The position numbers and the translations under genes are program-made. A stretch of DNA of 35,250 nucleotides from Anaerolineales bacterium (GTDB taxonomy: Bacteria; Chloroflexota; Anaerolineae; Anaerolineales; RBG-16-64-43), in the NCBI GenBank assembly GCA_016928575.1, contig JAFGKK010000032.1, forward strand, positions 1 through 35,250, written 5' to 3'. Of this stretch, positions 5,025 through 31,460 are shown piece after piece; positions within the stretch are counted from its first letter, which is position 1, and each line of letters starts with the position of its first letter. The notes under the pieces are model-generated. The model worked only from the letters and a program-made list of their open reading frames with translations, had not been told where the DNA came from and ran no database searches.

Positions 5025-5873
5025 ATGCAAAGAACAAAAAAAACCTGCCATTCCCCCCTGCTCTCCCTGTTGATCCTCCCTCTGGCCGCGTGCAGTCCGC
5101 AACCCCCCGCAAATCCGCCAACGGTCGAATCCAGTCCAACCATCGAAGCGGGGATTCCCACGCCCTCTCCGCAAGCCGCCGCGGCGGCTGCGGCGGAGAC
5201 GCCGATGCAATCCCCGACGGCCGCGGAAACTCAGGCGAACATACCGGAGATCGAGGTTCCCGACCCCGATCCGGGGACCGCCAACGTGGTCGGTCGTATT
5301 TTCTGGAACGAACAGCCGGTCACAGGTATCAGTCTGCTGATGTGCGAAACGATCGACCTGGCGGAAGGATGCCTGGGCGCCGCCTTTGAATCCCAGACGG
5401 ACGAAAACGGCGTCTACCTGTTCGCCAATGTCGCGCCCGGCGAGTACGACCTGGTGGTGGAAAGCCTGGATTTCGAGCACTGGCTCTACGTCACCGCCGG
5501 ACCGCAATCCGGCGCCGAAAAGCACCGGATCGCCGCCGATGCCACGCTGCGCCTTCCCGATTTCCATATTTTTAATTTTGACCTGGCGATGACCTCCCCC
5601 GCTGAAGACGAGGCCGTTTCCGCCGCCCGGCCGGCCCTGGCGTGGGAGGCTTACCCGTCCGCGTCGTATTACCGGGTTTTCCTGCAGGAGGAGAACGGAA
5701 CCGTCATTCTCCAGGGTGAAAAAACCGAACTCGCGACGATCGCGCCCACGGTCGACCTCAAGGCCTGCACATACCTCTGGCAGGTGGAAGCCTACAACGC
5801 CGCGGATATCAAGATCGCCGAGCACGACGGGTACGCGCGTTTCCAGGTCGTCGACCAACCGCAGTCATGTTGA
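5025..5873 (+). CDS. Secreted lipoprotein with a carboxypeptidase-regulatory-like domain
   Basis: Predicted to be exported and lipid-anchored; function unknown. Residues 1-23 form a lipoprotein signal: basic MQRTKK, a hydrophobic stretch, and the lipobox LAAC with Cys23. A flexible Pro/Ala/Thr-rich linker (about 24-85) follows. Next comes a beta-sandwich segment (about 88-165) with NVVGRIFWNEQPVTG, TDENGVYLFANVAPGEYDLVV, the pattern of carboxypeptidase-regulatory-like or prealbumin-like folds. The C-terminal part (ALAWEAYPSASYYRVFLQ, YLWQVEAYN) resembles a fibronectin III-type sandwich. I chose the ATG at 5025 because AGGAGGT lies 5-6 bases upstream and the signal peptide starts there; the frame opens earlier at 4923. 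A terminator lies at 5978. It stands alone on the plus strand. Confidence 0.75.
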   Translation: MQRTKKTCHSPLLSLLILPLAACSPQPPANPPTVESSPTIEAGIPTPSPQAAAAAAAETPMQSPTAAETQANIPEIEVPDPDPGTANVVGRIFWNEQPVTGISLLMCETIDLAEGCLGAAFESQTDENGVYLFANVAPGEYDLVVESLDFEHWLYVTAGPQSGAEKHRIAADATLRLPDFHIFNFDLAMTSPAEDEAVSAARPALAWEAYPSASYYRVFLQEENGTVILQGEKTELATIAPTVDLKACTYLWQVEAYNAADIKIAEHDGYARFQVVDQPQSC

Positions 5874-9151: not shown

Positions 9152-9820
9152 CTAAGGCCCGAAGAACGGCTGATCCAGATCGCCGTCGTTGCTGTACCCG
9201 AATCCCTCCCAATACCCGCGGTAGTTCGGATCGTCCGAGAGCTCTATCTCGGTGACCCATTTCACCCACTTGTATCCCCACTTGTCTTCGGCGACCACTT
9301 GGAAGGGGAAGCCGCGCTCCGCCGGAAGGACCACGTCGTTCATTTTGTACGCCAGCAGGATTTGCCTGTCCCGCAGGTATTCGACCGGCAGGGACGAGGT
9401 ATAGCCGTCGGCCGCGTGGAAAATCGCAATCCGCGCCTCCGCGCGCGCCTGAGCCTCCTGCAGCAGGTCGTCGATCAACACTCCTTCCCACAGGATCGTG
9501 GCGTCCCAGCCCTCCACGCAGTACAACGTCACCACCTTGGAATACAGATCAAGCCCCAGCACTTCTTCGTACGTCAGGGACAACGGCCGATCGACCAAGC
9601 CGGTCACCTGCAGACGGTAGGTATCCAGCGAAACCGTCTGCGGCCCCAGAATGGAATTTTCCCGGAACGCCTCGATCGAGGAGAGATCCTGCCCCTGATA
9701 CTCGCGGATCTCGGCCGGCGGCAGGCGGGAGGTCATCGACAACCCGCTTTTTCCGCCGCATCCCGCCAGGAAGCCCATCCCTGCGAAGATCCCGATCCAC
9801 AAACCAAATCGTCCCTTCAT
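9152..9820 (-). CDS. Sulfite-oxidase-fold molybdopterin oxidoreductase, lipoprotein
   Basis: Molybdopterin-binding oxidoreductase of the sulfite oxidase/MsrP fold, predicted to sit outside the membrane anchored by lipid. Seen: a lipoprotein signal ending LAGC (Cys21), then SLDTYRLQVTGLVDRPLSLTYEEV, the usual entry to the fold. TLYCVEGWDAT follows, whose Cys101 matches the molybdenum-ligating Cys, then WEGVLIDDLL, a DGYTSSLPVEYL strand, PFQVVAEDKWGYKWVKWV and DPNYRGYWE near the end. At 222 residues it is the minimal core domain. The signal has no twin-Arg motif (MKGRFGLW), unusual for a molybdoenzyme, which normally uses Tat. It starts 4 bases after the stop of the cytochrome-like gene, whose last codons supply its Shine-Dalgarno. 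The substrate is unknown. Confidence 0.87.
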   Translation of the reverse strand: MKGRFGLWIGIFAGMGFLAGCGGKSGLSMTSRLPPAEIREYQGQDLSSIEAFRENSILGPQTVSLDTYRLQVTGLVDRPLSLTYEEVLGLDLYSKVVTLYCVEGWDATILWEGVLIDDLLQEAQARAEARIAIFHAADGYTSSLPVEYLRDRQILLAYKMNDVVLPAERGFPFQVVAEDKWGYKWVKWVTEIELSDDPNYRGYWEGFGYSNDGDLDQPFFGP

Positions 9821-9824
9821 TTCT

Positions 9825-10067
9825 TTATCCTTTCCGCCGGGCGTCCTTCCATCGCGCCCAAAGCGCTATTCCTACGTGCGCCGCCAGGAACGCCATCATC
9901 GGCGCCTCGGTGTAAGCATGCAGTCGCTGGGCGACGGCTTTGTTCACCAGGCCGAAGGTCAACGGGGTGACGATTCGGAAATCGGAAATCCCATAGCCTG
10001 TCAGCAACGTAAACAACAGCAAAGCCAGCCCCAACCAGCCGAAAAAACGCCCGACTCTCCTGATCAT
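9825..10067 (-). CDS. Two-helix cytochrome b-like membrane subunit
   Basis: The 80-residue product has two membrane helices, about residues 8-24 and 51-69. His50 and His64 lie on the second helix, 14 residues apart, the spacing that places two haem ligands on one helix in diheme cytochromes b. I infer that it passes electrons to or from the molybdopterin lipoprotein encoded 4 bases downstream, by analogy with the MsrP-MsrQ pair. MsrQ has six helices, so this would be a much reduced partner. I chose the ATG at 10067 (MIRRVGRFF) because GAGGTGGGA precedes it; the frame opens at 10115, but the extra 16 residues are not hydrophobic or conserved. Haem binding is not proven. Confidence 0.7.
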   Translation of the reverse strand: MIRRVGRFFGWLGLALLLFTLLTGYGISDFRIVTPLTFGLVNKAVAQRLHAYTEAPMMAFLAAHVGIALWARWKDARRKG

Positions 10068-22766: not shown

Positions 22767-25700
22767 ATGCCATCCGGACGACCGAAAGCCGTTCCCCAAG
22801 CCTCCGCCCTGGAGAAATCCGCGCGCAACCTCGCCGCAGGTTCGGGCGCGGCGCGGAGCGGCGCCCGGCCCCTTCACCTGCGGCGGCTGGAACGCTTATC
22901 CGAACTGTTCACCCGCGCCTACGGGCGCTTCTCGCACATGGCCGAAGCGAAGCTCGAGCTTCCTTTGGCCGCCGAATGGCTGCTCGACAACTACTACCTC
23001 ATCCATCAGGCCTTGCGCGAGGTGCGGCACGACCTCCCGGCCGCGTTCTACCGCCAGCTCCCGGCGCTTTCGGATTCTCCCTCCGCTCCGCCGCGCATAT
23101 ACGCCCTGGCCCGGACTCTGACCGCCCGCGCCTCCCTGCACCAAGACCCGGAAATCATCCGCACCTTCACCGCCGCCTACCAGGAGGCGGCGCCGCTGAC
23201 GATCGGCGAGCTGTGGGCCCTGCCGGCAATGCTGCGCCTGGCGACGCTGGAACGCCTCGGCCGGGCGACGCTGACCCTGCTCGAATCCGCGCGCCAGGAA
23301 AATCCCTCCGCCCCGGAACAGCCTCCCGAGGGGGATTTCCTGCCGCCTCCGGAAGAGGGCGAGGGCGAAAGCCTGGTCTCGGACGGGGTGCTGGATCTGC
23401 GCGCGATCGACGCCGAGGACTGGAAAAAGAATTTCGAGCGCCTCAGCCTGGTGGAAAGCGTCCTCCGCCGCGATCCGGCCGGCTTGTATGCGCGGATGGA
23501 TTTCGAAACGCGCGACGCCTACCGCAAGGCGGTCGAGGACATCGCTTCCCGCACGGCCGAATCCGAAACCGCCGTGGCCGAGGCCGCGATCGCCCTCACC
23601 GAAGAGGAATGCCGCTGCCGGCAGGCGGGGATGGCCCCGCCCGCTCTGCGGAGTCCGCGCTCGCATCTGTTTTCCACCTCTCCGCGCGGCCGGACGGCCG
23701 AATCCGCCCCTCCGCCCTCCCCGCCCGATCAGAACCCGGATTCGGGGGATTCTTTTTACGCCGAAGGTTTCGCCCATGTCGGCTTCTACCTCCTCGAACG
23801 TGGCCGCGAAATGTTGGAGCGGCGTCTGCGCATAAAACCCTCAGCCGCCCGCCGGTTCCGGGTCTGGATGGGCGCGCGCATTCTACGCTTCTATCTCGGA
23901 AGCATTCTCCTCCTCAGCGCGGCGGCGTGCGCCGCCGGAGCGGTCGCCGCTGAACACTTGGGCGGGGAGCCCTGGCAGATCGCCCTGGCCGCCGTCTGCG
24001 GCCTGATCCCCTCCCTGACCATCGCCGCGGGATTGGTGCACGCGGTGGCGCCGCGGCTGATCCGGCCGCACTTCCTGCCGCGGATGGATTTCGAGGAAGG
24101 CGTCCCCGACGAATGCCGCACCCTGGTCGTCATCCCCGCCCTGCTCGAGGGGCTGGAGGGGATCCGCACTCTGCTCCGCAGCCTGGAACAGCACTACCTC
24201 AACACGCTTGACGATAACCTGTACTTCGCCCTGCTGACCGATTTCACCGACGCCCCCGCCAAAACGATGCCGGGCGACGAAGCCCTGATCGCCAGGGCGC
24301 GGCAAGGGATCCGCGCCCTGAACCGCAAGTACGGTTCCGGCGGGCGCGTTCCCTTCCACCTGCTCCACCGCGAGCGCGAGTGGAACGGACGCGAGGGGGT
24401 GTGGATGGGATGGGAGCGCAAACGCGGAAAACTGGTCGAACTCCTGCGCCTGCTCACCGGGGAGCAGGCTTCCGCCCACCGCCTGGTCGCTTCCGACGGG
24501 GAGCTCCCGCCGATCCGCTACGTGATCACGCTTGACGCGGATTCCTCATTGACGCGCGGCGGGGCGCGCCGCCTGATCGCCACGCTGGCCCACCCGCTCA
24601 ACCGGGCTCAGTTCGATCCGCAGACCGGCGAACTAACCTCCGGTTACACGGTGCTCCAGCCGCGGGTGCGCGTGTTTCCGACCAACGTCACCCGCACGCC
24701 CTTCGCGCGCCTGTTCGCCGGAGATTCGGGGTTGGACCTCTACACCCAGGCGGTCTCGGACGTGTACCAGGACCTGTTTCACGAGGGGATCTACGTCGGC
24801 AAAGGCATCCTCGACGTGCGCGCCTTCCACCGCAGCATCGAAGGGCGGATCCCCGAGAACGCTCTCCTCAGCCACGACCTGTTCGAAGGGCTCCTTGGCC
24901 GGGCCGGATTGGTGACCAGCGTGGTGCTCCTGGAGCATTTCCCGGACCACTACCTGGCCTACGCCGAGCGGGCCCACCGCTGGATACGCGGCGATTGGCA
25001 GCTCTTGCCGTGGCTGATGCCGCGGGTTCCGGCGGAAGACGGCCAGCGGGTTCCCAACTTCCTCTCGGCGTTCGACCGGTGGAAGATCTTCGACAACATC
25101 CGGCGCAGCTTGCTGTCGCCTTCGATCCTGGCGTTCCTGCTCGCAGGCTGGTTCCTGCTCCCGCCTCCTGCCCCGCTCTGGACCCTGCTGGCCCTGCTCG
25201 CGCCCGGGATATCCCTCCTGTCCGGATCGGCGCTTCATGTGCGTCTGCGCTGGGGAACCCCGTTTCCCTTTGAGAACGTGCGCCCGCTGGGGATGGACCT
25301 GGCGCGTTGGGGATTGTCGATTCTTTTTCTGCCCTTCGAGGCGCTGGCGGCCCTCGACGCCGTCGCCATAACGTTGATCCGCCTGATCGTCACCCGCCGG
25401 CATCTCCTGCAATGGACTCCGGCGGAGAGGGTTGCGCGCATCTTCCGGCGCAACGAGTCGTGGGCCGTCATCTTATGGCGGATGGCGTCCGGTCCGGCGG
25501 TTGCGGCCACGGCCGCAGTCTTGCTGTCCGTTTTCCGGCCCGGGTCCCTGCCGGCCGCGATCCTCCCGCTCGCCTCCTGGCTGATCTCCCCGTTGGCAGC
25601 CCAATGGATCAGCCGGCGGGTGGACCGCCGGCCGCCGCCGCTCTCGGCGTCCCAGCGCCGGAAACTCCGTAATCTCGCCCGGCGCACCTGGCTCTTCTAC

Positions 25701-28700
25701 GAAACCTTCGTCGGGCCGCAGGATCACTGGCTGCCGCCGGATCACTTCCAAGAGAATCCGCGCGGTTTGGCCGCTCACCGAACGTCCCCCACCAATATCG
25801 GCTTGCTGTTGCTGGCCGACTTGGCGGCCCGCGACCTCGGGTACATCAGTACGCTCGACATGATTCTGCGTTTGAACTCCACGCTCGAGACCCTGCGCGG
25901 GATGGAACGACACCGCGGGCATTTGCTGAATTGGTACGACACCCGGACGCTGGCTCCCCTTTCGCCGGGCTACGTTTCCACCGTCGACAGCGGGAATTTG
26001 GCGGCCTGCCTGATCGCGCTTTCGCAGGCCGGCCAGGAGGAGCATAGCCTTCCGATCCTGCGCGCGGAACGCTGGGAAGGCCTGATCGATTTGGCCTCGA
26101 TTCTGGCCGAAGAGCTCGAGCCGGTCGAGGAGACTCCCGGACACAAGGATCTGCGCCGGGCGGCGGACGGACTGATCCGGCGGATCAACGAAGTGAAGAG
26201 CGATTCCGACTGCTGGGTGGAACACATCCGCGGGATCGAAGCCGGCGAACTGCCGCAAATGGAGGCGTGCCTGCTGCGGCTGGTCGACGAGCGGCCGGCA
26301 TCGCTGTCGGCCGAAATCCTGGAACGGGTGCGGATCCTTGGCTCGCGCCTGCGCCACCAGCTGATGAGCATGCGGCGCGACGAGACCCTGCTGCTTCCCT
26401 GGAAGGAAGTCTTGCGCGCCGCGCCCGAGTTTTTCACCGCCGCGGAATGCCCCGCCCCCGTGCGCTCCCAGTGGCAGTCCCTTGCGGGGGCGCTGCCCTC
26501 CAACTTCAAGCTGGCGGAGTTCCCCGCCGTGTTCCAATCCGCCGCCGCGCGGCTGGACGCCCTCCACCAAACGCTGAAGGAGATGTCCGATCCGGATTCG
26601 TCCGACGCTTCTCCGCTGCGCAAAGCCCGGGAATGGTGCCGGCGGCTGGCGGAAAAAATGGAGGTGTCGACCAAGGCGCTTAAGGAAATGCAGGCGGATC
26701 TGAACGGCGTTTCCGCCCAAAGCGAACAGCTGATCGCGGAGATGGATTTCGGATTCCTGTTTTCCGCGCGGCGGCAGGTGTTGCACATCGGCTATAACCT
26801 TGAGGCCGGAAAACTGGACGACAACCATTACGACCTGCTGGCCTCGGAAGCCCGGCTGACCAGCCTGGTGGCGATCGCCAAAGGCGACGTGCCGACCGCC
26901 CACTGGCTGCATCTGGGCCGACCGCTTGTCCGGATCGGCGGATCGCTCGCCCTGCTTTCCTGGAGCGGGACGATGTTCGAATTCCTCATGCCCAACCTGC
27001 TGGCTCGGCCGTTCCCCGGCACCCTGCTCGAGCAAACCTGCCGGGCGGCAATCCGGCGTCAGATCCGATACGCCCGCGGCCTGGGCTTGCCGTGGGGGAT
27101 TTCGGAATCCGGCTTCTACGCCTTCGACGCGTCGCAAAACTACCAATACCGGGCTTTCGGAGTGCCCGGGCTGGGGTTTAAGCGCGGACTGGAAAACGAC
27201 CGGGTGATCGCCCCGTACGCCTCGATCCTCGCGTTGGATCTGGCGCCGCGCGAGGTGCTGGACAACCTGTCGCGGCTGGAACGGCTCGGGTTGACCGGCC
27301 GCTACGGTCTCTACGAGGCGCTGGATTGCACGCCGTCCCGAATCCCTAAAGGCAAATCCTGCGCGATCGTGCAATCCTACATGAGCCATCACCACGGAAT
27401 GATCCTCGCGGCGCTGGTCAACACCCTCAAAGACGGCATCCTGCTGCGCCGGTTCCACGCCGATCCGCGGATCCGGACGGTGGACATCCTCATGCAGGAG
27501 CAATCCCCGGCGGGGATTCCCCTGGCCCAACCCACGCCGCCGGTGATGGCGGCAATGCAAGCCAAGACCGTCCACATCCGCCAGAATCCCTGGCGCGTGC
27601 GGGCGCGCACCCCCGCTCCGCAGGCGCACGTTCTTTCCAACGGCCGCTATGGAATCCTGCTGACCGGCGCCGGGGCGGGGTACAGCTGGTGGAAGGACCT
27701 GGCGCTGACGCGTTGGAGCGCGGATTCCACCTGCGAAACGGGCGGGACCTGGATCTACGTCAAGGACTTCGACCGCGGCCGTGTGTTCTCCCCCACCTTT
27801 CAACCGCTGGCGGCGCCGGGCGGAGAACCCCAAGTCTTGTTCTTCCCGTTCAAGGCCGAGTATTACCGGCGCGAGCAGGGGCTGGCCTTCAAACTCGAGG
27901 TGAGCGTCGCCTGCGACGACGACGTCGAAATCCGCCACCTGACGATCACCAACCACACCGACAGCGCGCGCAGGCTGATGATCGCCTCCTGCGGCGAGGC
28001 GGTCCTCGCCCCGCCGGAAGCCGACCGCCGCCATCCGGCGTTTAACAAATTATTCGTCGAATCCGAGTTCCTCGAGGACCTAAACGCCCTGCTCCTGCGG
28101 CGCCGGCCGCGCTCGGAGCGCGAGTCGTCCGCGTTCCTCCTGCACATGCTGGTTACGCGGCCCGGCGCGCGCTTCACCCTCCTGCGCGAATGCGACCGCC
28201 GGCGGTTCCTCGGACGCGGCCGCACGGCCCGCAATCCGGCGTTCCTCGACGGGGACGAACCGCCGCCGCCGGGGCCGGACGGTGCGACGCTGGATCCGGT
28301 TTTTGTCCTCGGGCGGGACCTGCGGCTTTCTCCGCGGGCCGCCTCGCGCTCGTCGTTCGTCACCATCGCCGGAGAGAGCCGCGGCGAGGTGATCGCCCTG
28401 GCACGCCGCTATGCTTCGCTCGCGGTCCTCGACCGGGCGATCGGGCGGGCGCGCTACGACTCGGAAAACGAAATGCGCGCCTTCGGCGTGGACACGGCCG
28501 AATTGCAGACCGCCGGCCGCCTGCTTTCGGCCCTGGTCTACCCCCGCAGCCACTTCCGCGCCAGCGCCCGAATCCTCGCCAGCAACCGCAAGGGGCAGAC
28601 CGGCCTGTGGGGATTCGGCATCTCGGGCGACCACCCGATTTTGCTTCTGCACCTGAAAAACGAAGATGAGACCGCCGTCCTGCGCGACGTCCTGCGGGCG

Positions 28701-31460
28701 CACGCCTGGTGGCGGAGGCGCGGGGTCAAGATCGACGTGGTGGTGCTGACCGAAAAGGAAAGCGGCTACGCCCAGGAACTGCAGGGGAAGATCTACCGCC
28801 TGATCACAAGCATGGACAGCGGCTCCTGGATCAACCGGCGCGGCGGCATCTTTCTGCTCGCCGCGGATCAGATGACGCCGGAGGACCGGGTGCTGCTCTC
28901 CGCGGCGGCGCGGGTGATCCTCGACGGATCGCGCGGGAATCTGGCCGCCCAGCTCGGCGAAGCGCGGGGCAATCCGGCCCGCATGCCGGCCTTTCAGCCG
29001 GCGCCGCCCGCCGCCGTGGAGGAGCCCACGCCGCCGCTCGAACGCCCGGCCGGATGGCAATTCGACAACGGCATCGGCGGATTTACTCCGGACGGACGCG
29101 AATACCAGATCTTCCTGCGCGAGGGGGAGAACACTCCCCGGCCATGGATCAATGTCATCGCCAATCCGTGTTTTGGATTTCTGGCATCCGAATCCGGATT
29201 CGGATGCAGTTGGGCTGAAAACGCCTCGGAGAACCGGCTGACCTTTTGGTCGAACGATCCGGTCAGTGACGAGCCGGGCGAAGCCTGCTACCTGCGCGAC
29301 GAGGAAACCGCCGCGGTTTGGTCGCCGACGCCTCAGCCCGCTCCCGGAGGCGGACCGTATTGGATCCGGCACGGGGCCGGGTATTCGATCTACGTGCACC
29401 AGTCGCACGGCCTGCGGCAGGAAACGCGCGTCTTCGCCGCCCCCGACGCTCCGGTCAAACTGGTCGCGCTGAAATTACGCAACCTTTGGAACCGGCCGCG
29501 GCGCCTGACGGCGACCTATTACGCGCGCTGGGTGCTCGGCACCCACCCGGGCATGACTTCCCAGTACGTCATTCCCGAATACGAGCCGGGCGTCAACGCC
29601 ATCCTCGCCTCCAATCCCTACAACGCGGAGTTCGCCGAACGCTGCGCCTTCCTCGCCTCCAGCCAGCATCCGCACGGATTGACGGCCGACCGGACCGAAT
29701 TCCTCGGGCGATTCGGCGGATTGCAGAAGCCGGCGGCGCTCGGACGGATCGGCTTGGCCGGGGCCGTGCGCGCCGGATTGGATCCGTGCGCCGCGATCAT
29801 GGTCCACATCGAACTGCCGCCCGGCGGCGAACGCGAGTGCTTTTTCCTTCTCGGACAGGGCGAGAACCGCACCCGGGCGGTGCGCCTGGCGCGCAAATTC
29901 GGCGACCCGCGCCGGCTGGAGGAATTTTGGCGCGCGGCGCTCGAGCGCTGGGACAACCTGCTCGGCGCGGTCCAGGTGGAAACCCCCGACCCGGCCATCG
30001 ACCGGATGCTCAACCGCTGGCTGGTCTACCAGACGCTCTCCTGCCGGGTATGGGGCCGCTCGGCGCTCTACCAGCCCGGCGGCGGATACGGTTTCCGCGA
30101 CCAACTGCAGGACGTCTCGGCCCTGCTCCTCGCCGATCCCGCGATCGCCCGCGCCCACCTGCTCGATTCCGCGCGGCGCCAGTTCACCCAGGGAGACGTG
30201 TTGCATTGGTGGCATCCGCCCTCGGGGCGGGGCGTGCGGACCCGCATCTCCGACGACCTGCTCTGGCTGCCCTATGCCGCGGCGCATTATGTGGAGGTCA
30301 CCGGCGACGAAGCGGTTCTCGACGAGCGGGCGCCGTTCCTGGAGGCCGAGCCGCTGAAGCCGGACGAGGACGAACGCTACGCCTCGTTCGAAACTTCGCT
30401 CGAGGAGCACACGCTGCGGGAGCACTGCCGGCGGGCGATCGAGCGCGGATCCACCGCTGGGCGGCACGGATTGCCGCTGATCGGCGGCGGCGATTGGAAC
30501 GACGGCTTCAACCGGGTGGGAGCTGGAGGCGGTGGGGAAAGCGTCTGGCTAGGATGGTTCCTCCACGACGTCCTGGTCCGCTTCGCGCGGCTGAGCGAGC
30601 GCGCCGGCCGCGGCGACGAGGCCCGCGCCTGGCGCTCCCGGGCGGAAGGGTTGCGCCGGGCGGTCGAGGAAGCCGCCTGGGACGCGGACGGGGGCTGGTA
30701 CAAGCGCGCATTCTTCGACGACGGCGCCCCGATCGGCGCGCCGTCCGACGCGGAATGGCGGATCGACTCGCTCCCGCAGTCATGGGCCGTCCTCACCGGC
30801 GCCGCCGATCCGCAGCGCGCCGCGCGGGCGATGGATTCGCTGTTGGAAAACCTCGTCCGCCGCGATTCCGGATTGATCCTCTTGGCCGATCCTCCCTTCG
30901 ACGCGAGCCCGCGCGACCCGGGATACATCAAGGGGTACCCTCCCGGAGTCCGCGAAAACGGCGGCATGTACGTGCACGCGGCGATCTGGGCGGCCTGGGC
31001 GGCCCTGCGATTGGGACGCGCCGAGGAGGCGCACGCGCTGTTCGGCATGATCAACCCGATCCGGCGCGCGGATTCGCAGCAGAAGGCGGCCCTATACGAG
31101 GTGGAACCGTACGCGGTTGCGGCCGACATCTCCAACCAGCCGGGGCATGCCGGACGCGGCGGATGGACTTGGTATACCGGCTCGGCCGGCTGGCTGTACC
31201 GCCTCGGGCTGGAGGGCATCCTCGGCCTGCGGCGCTCGGGCCGGGTGCTGCAAATGGAGCCCTGCATCCCGAAGGCCTGGCGCGGATTCTCCATCCGCTG
31301 CCGCTTCGGCCGCACGATCCTGCGGATCGAAGTTCAGAATCCCGATGGGGCTTCGTGCGGCGTGCGGTCGGTGAGCTACGACGGCCAGATCATGATGACC
31401 AAAGAGATCCCCCTGCCCGACGACGGCAAGGAGCATCGCGCCGTGGTGGTGTTGGGCTGA
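22767..31460 (+). CDS. ndvB: Cyclic beta-1,2-glucan synthase (GT84 + GH94 type)
   Basis: A very large membrane enzyme of 2,897 residues. NdvB/ChvB/Cgs build cyclic beta-1,2-glucans from UDP-glucose: initiation and elongation by the GT domain, length control by the phosphorylase domain. Domains seen: an N-terminal region to about 370; membrane segments about 370-435; a GT domain about 445-800 with YVITLDADSSL near 586 and AHRWIRGDWQLLPW near 737; membrane segments about 782-950; a glucoamylase-like domain about 990-1560 with SYMSHHHGMIL near 1538; and a GH94 half from about 1600 with NRKGQTGLWGFGISGDHP near 1940, YGFRDQLQDVSALL near 2441 and GGGDWNDGFNRVG near 2575. The length equals that of rhizobial and Brucella enzymes. 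The start has GGGAG 13 bases upstream. Nothing in the frame is broken. Confidence 0.95.
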   Translation: MPSGRPKAVPQASALEKSARNLAAGSGAARSGARPLHLRRLERLSELFTRAYGRFSHMAEAKLELPLAAEWLLDNYYLIHQALREVRHDLPAAFYRQLPALSDSPSAPPRIYALARTLTARASLHQDPEIIRTFTAAYQEAAPLTIGELWALPAMLRLATLERLGRATLTLLESARQENPSAPEQPPEGDFLPPPEEGEGESLVSDGVLDLRAIDAEDWKKNFERLSLVESVLRRDPAGLYARMDFETRDAYRKAVEDIASRTAESETAVAEAAIALTEEECRCRQAGMAPPALRSPRSHLFSTSPRGRTAESAPPPSPPDQNPDSGDSFYAEGFAHVGFYLLERGREMLERRLRIKPSAARRFRVWMGARILRFYLGSILLLSAAACAAGAVAAEHLGGEPWQIALAAVCGLIPSLTIAAGLVHAVAPRLIRPHFLPRMDFEEGVPDECRTLVVIPALLEGLEGIRTLLRSLEQHYLNTLDDNLYFALLTDFTDAPAKTMPGDEALIARARQGIRALNRKYGSGGRVPFHLLHREREWNGREGVWMGWERKRGKLVELLRLLTGEQASAHRLVASDGELPPIRYVITLDADSSLTRGGARRLIATLAHPLNRAQFDPQTGELTSGYTVLQPRVRVFPTNVTRTPFARLFAGDSGLDLYTQAVSDVYQDLFHEGIYVGKGILDVRAFHRSIEGRIPENALLSHDLFEGLLGRAGLVTSVVLLEHFPDHYLAYAERAHRWIRGDWQLLPWLMPRVPAEDGQRVPNFLSAFDRWKIFDNIRRSLLSPSILAFLLAGWFLLPPPAPLWTLLALLAPGISLLSGSALHVRLRWGTPFPFENVRPLGMDLARWGLSILFLPFEALAALDAVAITLIRLIVTRRHLLQWTPAERVARIFRRNESWAVILWRMASGPAVAATAAVLLSVFRPGSLPAAILPLASWLISPLAAQWISRRVDRRPPPLSASQRRKLRNLARRTWLFYETFVGPQDHWLPPDHFQENPRGLAAHRTSPTNIGLLLLADLAARDLGYISTLDMILRLNSTLETLRGMERHRGHLLNWYDTRTLAPLSPGYVSTVDSGNLAACLIALSQAGQEEHSLPILRAERWEGLIDLASILAEELEPVEETPGHKDLRRAADGLIRRINEVKSDSDCWVEHIRGIEAGELPQMEACLLRLVDERPASLSAEILERVRILGSRLRHQLMSMRRDETLLLPWKEVLRAAPEFFTAAECPAPVRSQWQSLAGALPSNFKLAEFPAVFQSAAARLDALHQTLKEMSDPDSSDASPLRKAREWCRRLAEKMEVSTKALKEMQADLNGVSAQSEQLIAEMDFGFLFSARRQVLHIGYNLEAGKLDDNHYDLLASEARLTSLVAIAKGDVPTAHWLHLGRPLVRIGGSLALLSWSGTMFEFLMPNLLARPFPGTLLEQTCRAAIRRQIRYARGLGLPWGISESGFYAFDASQNYQYRAFGVPGLGFKRGLENDRVIAPYASILALDLAPREVLDNLSRLERLGLTGRYGLYEALDCTPSRIPKGKSCAIVQSYMSHHHGMILAALVNTLKDGILLRRFHADPRIRTVDILMQEQSPAGIPLAQPTPPVMAAMQAKTVHIRQNPWRVRARTPAPQAHVLSNGRYGILLTGAGAGYSWWKDLALTRWSADSTCETGGTWIYVKDFDRGRVFSPTFQPLAAPGGEPQVLFFPFKAEYYRREQGLAFKLEVSVACDDDVEIRHLTITNHTDSARRLMIASCGEAVLAPPEADRRHPAFNKLFVESEFLEDLNALLLRRRPRSERESSAFLLHMLVTRPGARFTLLRECDRRRFLGRGRTARNPAFLDGDEPPPPGPDGATLDPVFVLGRDLRLSPRAASRSSFVTIAGESRGEVIALARRYASLAVLDRAIGRARYDSENEMRAFGVDTAELQTAGRLLSALVYPRSHFRASARILASNRKGQTGLWGFGISGDHPILLLHLKNEDETAVLRDVLRAHAWWRRRGVKIDVVVLTEKESGYAQELQGKIYRLITSMDSGSWINRRGGIFLLAADQMTPEDRVLLSAAARVILDGSRGNLAAQLGEARGNPARMPAFQPAPPAAVEEPTPPLERPAGWQFDNGIGGFTPDGREYQIFLREGENTPRPWINVIANPCFGFLASESGFGCSWAENASENRLTFWSNDPVSDEPGEACYLRDEETAAVWSPTPQPAPGGGPYWIRHGAGYSIYVHQSHGLRQETRVFAAPDAPVKLVALKLRNLWNRPRRLTATYYARWVLGTHPGMTSQYVIPEYEPGVNAILASNPYNAEFAERCAFLASSQHPHGLTADRTEFLGRFGGLQKPAALGRIGLAGAVRAGLDPCAAIMVHIELPPGGERECFFLLGQGENRTRAVRLARKFGDPRRLEEFWRAALERWDNLLGAVQVETPDPAIDRMLNRWLVYQTLSCRVWGRSALYQPGGGYGFRDQLQDVSALLLADPAIARAHLLDSARRQFTQGDVLHWWHPPSGRGVRTRISDDLLWLPYAAAHYVEVTGDEAVLDERAPFLEAEPLKPDEDERYASFETSLEEHTLREHCRRAIERGSTAGRHGLPLIGGGDWNDGFNRVGAGGGGESVWLGWFLHDVLVRFARLSERAGRGDEARAWRSRAEGLRRAVEEAAWDADGGWYKRAFFDDGAPIGAPSDAEWRIDSLPQSWAVLTGAADPQRAARAMDSLLENLVRRDSGLILLADPPFDASPRDPGYIKGYPPGVRENGGMYVHAAIWAAWAALRLGRAEEAHALFGMINPIRRADSQQKAALYEVEPYAVAADISNQPGHAGRGGWTWYTGSAGWLYRLGLEGILGLRRSGRVLQMEPCIPKAWRGFSIRCRFGRTILRIEVQNPDGASCGVRSVSYDGQIMMTKEIPLPDDGKEHRAVVVLG

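Follow-up and report, generated by a model that had tools for sequence, protein, structure and literature searches.

The locus comprises two adjacent genes on the reverse strand of the window, by which we mean the whole 35,250-nucleotide stretch of Anaerolineales DNA that was analyzed. The upstream gene encodes an 80-residue membrane protein and the downstream gene a 222-residue lipoprotein with a sulfite oxidase (SUOX) fold (Table 1). Only 4 nucleotides separate the two, and the AAAGGA ribosome-binding site of the lipoprotein gene sits inside the last codons of its neighbor. Given this short gap and the overlapping site, the junction suggests that the genes are very likely coupled in translation. 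The assigned start of the upstream gene, ATG 10067, is preceded by a Shine-Dalgarno-like GAGGTGG; the furthest upstream in-frame start, ATG 10115, would yield 96 residues. A missed upstream helix was rejected, as any extension with a start codon adds at most 16 residues, which is too few. There is thus no sign of the longer, multi-helix form that an earlier note on this DNA had named as counting against its reading.

Table 1. Features of the two-gene locus in the window
Feature	Position	Strand	Basis or remark
Half-size b-type cytochrome gene (type A), predicted, 80 aa, two-helix	9825..10067	-	ORF, profile and model matches
His50 codon	9918..9920	-	Putative outer-side haem ligand; invariant among 45, aligns with FdnI His155
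His64 codon	9876..9878	-	Putative inner-side haem ligand; invariant among 45, aligns with FdnI His169
Gly24 codon (helix 1)	9996..9998	-	Third invariant residue
SUOX-fold lipoprotein gene, 222 aa, extracytosolic partner	9152..9820	-	PF00174 E 2.2e-34; AF2; Foldseek
Cys21 codon	9758..9760	-	Predicted lipidated residue, lipobox LAGC; signal without twin arginine
Cys101 codon	9518..9520	-	Mo-ligand Cys position of SUOX enzymes, motif CVEGW
Gln174 codon	9299..9301	-	Stands where 30/30 SUOX-family controls have Arg
Gene junction	9821..9833	-	Cytochrome gene end AAA GGA TAA is the lipoprotein gene ribosome-binding site

The small protein contains exactly two histidines, at positions 50 and 64. Its AF2 model, built with 45 homologues (mean pLDDT 94.5), has helices at residues 2-28, 30-36 (a short one) and 43-79. 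Both histidines are located on the last of these, four turns apart and on the same face. The earlier description of two helices with a single histidine pair on one of them is therefore borne out by the reading frame and the model. Because positive residues flank both ends of the protein, its termini are probably cytosolic, which would place the loop outside and His50 nearer the outer face.

Several comparisons relate this protein to b-type cytochromes. It scores 24.1 bits (E 3.5e-5) against PF01292 (Ni_hydr_CYTB, prokaryotic cytochrome b561), below the cut-off of 30.1, and 13.9 bits against DUF4405 (PF14358), below the cut-off of 26.7. At E ≤ 0.01, these families match 34 and 25 of the 45 homologues, respectively, the best DUF4405 value being 9.8e-13. 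PF01794, the ferric-reductase type to which MsrQ belongs, has no match in the window protein and matches 3 of the 45 homologues at the same threshold. A profile of the half-cytochromes can be aligned with either half of HyaC and either half of FdnI; His50 and His64 fall on FdnI His155 and His169, which are haem ligands in the 1KQF structure. The 14-residue spacing is accordingly the one found in cytochromes b, as had been proposed. HyaC is also among the best Foldseek and VIA matches of the hairpin model (TMq 0.61-0.64, Z 7.2), a fold match that is weak by itself since the VIA list includes unrelated helical proteins at similar Z. Two profile types of half-cytochrome, A and B, are related to each other (hhalign E 3.6e-6, probability 87.5). 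Since either half of the full-length proteins matches the profile and the histidines coincide with FdnI ligands, a half-size cytochrome b is the best reading of the 80-residue protein. Such proteins are already known as a kind. The protein family arCOG04002 has been described as having two transmembrane helices and two conserved histidines, and as corresponding to roughly half of cytochrome b561 (PMC5898192). Likewise, FezC has been shown to bind haem b and was modelled as a homodimer forming DUF4405-like haem sites (PMC11334425). By analogy with FezC, a homodimer of the window protein is plausible.

The histidine pair is strongly conserved. Among 45 half-cytochrome neighbors of homologous lipoproteins, a set chosen partly by its H-x13-H motif, the only invariant columns are Gly24, His50 and His64. 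The motif is kept at all 23 loci matched by plain tblastn with the 80-residue protein, a count that includes the window itself and two loci of one genome (L002 and L004). It is also kept in 47 of 48 profile matches, the exception being locus L019. The tblastn count is the cleaner of the two, because sequences that already had the motif went into building the profiles. A chance spacing of the histidines is rejected by this conservation, and the loss of the pair in homologues, which the earlier note had held would speak against its reading, was not encountered apart from L019. H-x13-H neighbors at L044, L068 and L080 turned out to be HlyIII fragments and were removed as false positives.

It is very improbable that the small protein lacks haem and serves only to anchor the lipoprotein in the membrane or to assist its assembly. 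A search for ferrochelatase detected none in the host and in most carriers, as would be expected of a protein without haem, but the search is uninformative because a Methanosarcina control, which makes haem by another route, lacks the enzyme too. The pair of putative ligands is the most conserved feature of the protein, and the lipoprotein, being anchored by a lipid or an N-terminal helix of its own, has no evident need of a further anchor. In addition, two unrelated extracytosolic haem domains are encoded beside the pair at other loci: cytochrome b5 at L064 and DOMON at L006 and L017.

The second gene product is a lipoprotein by its lipobox and a SUOX-fold protein by sequence and structure. 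It scores 118.9 bits against PF00174 (cut-off 24), and its AF2 model (pLDDT 82) matches SorA (a sulfite dehydrogenase; E 9.6e-13), MsrP and PruR in Foldseek. It scores 50.4 bits against the MsrP model NF003767, below the NCBIfam cut-off of 207, and far below the cut-offs of the NCBIfam sulfite dehydrogenase models. Cys101 is invariant in the lipoprotein alignment and in 30 of 30 SUOX controls; conservation extends to Lys187 and to the CVE.W motif, which MsrP shares. In the SUOX family, the arginine of the G-x-P-x-R motif contacts the pterin. None of 54 lipoproteins has arginine at this site (Gln in 41, Met in 6, Glu in 4, Val in 2, Ser in 1), in contrast to all 30 controls. A twin-arginine (Tat) signal is likewise missing from the window protein, and three loose RR matches were seen in 83 loci, whereas twin arginines occur in each of the 15 SUOX controls of relatives that have an export signal.

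The half-cytochrome and the SUOX-fold lipoprotein form a real and widespread two-gene module. A scan of genome contigs recovered 164 loci related to the lipoprotein, of which 80 were kept for analysis. Carriers include Chloroflexota, Actinomycetota, Methanomicrobiales, small archaeal and bacterial bins, which may be misassigned, and others; a lineage-specific oddity was rejected in view of this spread. Of 83 loci, 52 have a half-cytochrome profile match next to the lipoprotein gene; among the 77 loci flanked by 600 bp or more on both sides, the number is 51. Further out at the same loci, 451 kb of sequence gave no match. These profiles detected no half-cytochrome nearby in the remaining 26 well-flanked loci. 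The 23 tblastn matches mentioned above also lie beside the lipoprotein gene. Gene order varies between upstream, downstream and convergent, and one genome (L008) encodes half-cytochrome and SUOX domain as a single fused protein. On the lipoprotein tree, partner type is clustered, yet 12-13 changes are needed for types A and B, and well-supported branches force at least six partner changes, with changes to ‘none found’ counted in. That the partners were exchanged so often speaks for a functional link. The coupling that had been suggested from the window alone therefore holds across genomes, as seen by the search for small neighbors of SUOX-fold genes that the earlier note recommended.

Some loci depart from the common arrangement. 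At L053, a second half-cytochrome of type C (5109-5327, reverse strand, 73 aa) lies beside the type B one. The lipoprotein homologue of L054 (4001-4648) has one in-frame stop codon. Coriobacteriia-type homologues at L034, L039, L044, L050, L079 and L080 have no half-cytochrome nearby and an FNR-type reductase gene in their neighborhood.

Whether the lipoprotein is a molybdopterin enzyme, as had been assumed, is doubtful. MoaA, MoaC and MoeA, biosynthesis markers of the molybdenum cofactor (Moco), were detected neither in the host nor in three Anaerolineae relatives that carry the module (G000, G001, G003, G151), with a genome completeness of 97% for the host and a same-genus relative, 99% for the third genome and none stated for the fourth. 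The doubt stems from these missing markers together with the lack of a Tat signal and the loss of the arginine in all 54 members; the retained Cys101 and the Moco genes of methanogen carriers stand against it. Missing Moco genes alone do not show that the protein is Mo-free. Four near-complete relatives with SUOX-family genes lack MoaC and MoeA (G029, G053, G078, G088; loci L101, L102, L107, L112), and three of them (G053, G078, G088) encode canonical Tat MsrP-like proteins. A 2018 survey of orphan molybdoproteins in genomes without the Moco pathway left open whether these are Mo-independent or served by unknown biosynthesis (PMC6147048).

An alternative that we consider possible but rather unlikely is that the lipoprotein is an ordinary MsrP-type Moco enzyme and the half-cytochrome replaces MsrQ. 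The protein would be exported unfolded and be loaded with cofactor once outside, or else neighbors or an unknown pathway would supply the cofactor. Such an enzyme would explain the conserved Cys101, Lys187 and CVE.W motif, the MsrB and MsrA genes beside some modules and the presence of MoaA/MoaC in many carriers (methanogens, Coriobacteriia), and the orphan MsrP-like proteins of relatives offer a parallel. It fits poorly with the four Anaerolineae genomes above, the absence of MoaC from 30 of 53 carriers, the missing Tat motif and an arginine that is invariant in controls and gone in every member.

The lipoprotein may instead resemble PruR, a secreted, Mo-free SUOX-fold protein in which tryptophan replaces the Mo-ligand cysteine (PMC13259868). 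As PruR shows, molybdenum is not a requirement for every exported SUOX-fold protein, though PruR itself lacks the cysteine. A PruR-like pterin or redox sensor, with the half-cytochrome feeding it or reading its redox state, would make the module one of signalling rather than catalysis. In favor of this idea, PruR structures match the lipoprotein model (TMt 0.69-0.75), and the lost arginine may be compatible with a ligand that is smaller and lacks phosphate. We nevertheless regard it as improbable: Cys101 is invariant here, and the neighbors seen, from a survey that was not a systematic search for signalling genes, are redox-repair enzymes.

At several loci, neighboring genes give a clue to function. 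In a Woesearchaeota bin (L064, 1967-6311), the pair is part of a compact oxidative-stress array on one strand, in the order rubrerythrin, glutaredoxin (assigned by eye), desulfoferrodoxin, cytochrome b5 lipoprotein, half-cytochrome, SUOX lipoprotein, MsrB, MsrA and FNR-type reductase. MsrB adjoins the lipoprotein gene at L019 and L078; at L017, genes for a ferritin-like protein, Fe-SOD and a DOMON protein lie ahead of the pair. AhpC/TSA, rubrerythrin, rubredoxin and FNR genes occur near the module in other loci. Neighbors of the Msr or ROS type occur at a minority of loci, given here as individual observations, and none was seen beside the module in the window itself. These genes fit, and point to, electron delivery for the repair of oxidative damage outside the cytosol, with methionine sulfoxide as the simplest candidate substrate. 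They make plausible the part of the earlier note that saw a counterpart of MsrP-MsrQ; the cytochrome part of that note is well supported, and the molybdopterin part is the one in doubt.

From the conserved histidine pair, the fold of each protein, the gene coupling, the neighborhood and the missing Moco markers, we propose that the module delivers electrons across the membrane to the SUOX-fold lipoprotein in the manner of MsrQ-MsrP, probably without the standard molybdenum cofactor. We consider the case for this proposal evenly balanced. Two copies of the 80-residue protein, each half of a b561/DUF4405-type cytochrome b, would pair by parallel second helices (His50-His50', His64-His64') and so bind a pair of b haems close to opposite faces of the membrane. 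Electrons would come from the cytosol or the membrane, with either the quinone pool or an NAD(P)H-flavin reductase as donor, and pass outward to the lipoprotein on the outer face. The lipoprotein would then reduce an oxidized extracytosolic substrate; methionine sulfoxide, or a similar compound formed by oxidative damage, is the most likely one. The module would work in a similar way to MsrQ-MsrP, but its cytochrome is half-sized and unrelated, and its SUOX-fold proteins form a family of their own. A broader version is advanced only tentatively: Moco-free SUOX-fold lipoproteins, fed by half-size diheme cytochromes b, may be widespread and repair oxidized methionine or similar targets outside the cytosol through the invariant cysteine or another cofactor.

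The module shares features with several known systems. Like MsrP-MsrQ, it joins a putative b-type membrane cytochrome to an extracytosolic SUOX-fold protein with the CVE.W motif in an oxidative-damage context. However, MsrQ is larger and of the ferric-reductase type, whereas the putative cytochrome here has two helices and is of the b561/DUF4405 type. MsrP carries Moco, leaves the cytosol by the Tat route and has both the invariant arginine and a C-terminal part missing here, in contrast to a lipid- or TM-anchored family that has no Tat motif and whose host here lacks Moco markers. FezC, with haem b shown and a homodimer predicted, is comparable to the dimer proposed here, but FezC and the DUF4405 cytochromes occur in ferrosome or flavinylation contexts with no SUOX partner described (PMC11334425), and the window protein falls below the DUF4405 cut-off. 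The two-helix, two-histidine half-b561 plan is shared with arCOG04002, which has a different gene context (Thermococci) and no SUOX lipoprotein mentioned in the excerpted text (PMC5898192). PruR is also small, exported and of SUOX fold, but has DcpA as partner and no cytochrome partner described (PMC13259868). HyaC and FdnI have the same helix pair with histidines 14 apart, but are full-length subunits of hydrogenase or formate dehydrogenase. A literature search, with most subscription journals outside its coverage, returned no description of the half-cytochrome/SUOX-lipoprotein pairing.

The pair recurs in anaerobic bacteria and archaea, where it may be an unrecognized extracytosolic repair system and its lipoprotein may work in a new way. 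The lipoprotein family provides a concrete case for the orphan-molybdoprotein question (PMC6147048), with sequence correlates in the lack of Tat and the lost arginine. Cultured carriers of the module include Methanocalculus taiwanensis and Methanogenium marinum. In addition, because either half of a full-length b-type cytochrome is matched by its profile, the half-cytochrome may serve as a living model for the origin of cytochrome b by duplication of a two-helix unit.

Other genes of the window were also noted. A TatA/B-like gene (PF02416; 7065-7646, reverse strand) lies near the module, and a TatA-like ORF likewise follows the lipoprotein gene in the relative G003 (L003); TatC is on another contig, C111. 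The TatA-like gene was rejected as a dedicated exporter, the lipoprotein having no Tat motif. On the forward strand, a 2897-aa ORF (22767-31460) resembles cyclic beta-glucan synthase by eye, with glycosyltransferase and phosphorylase-like parts.
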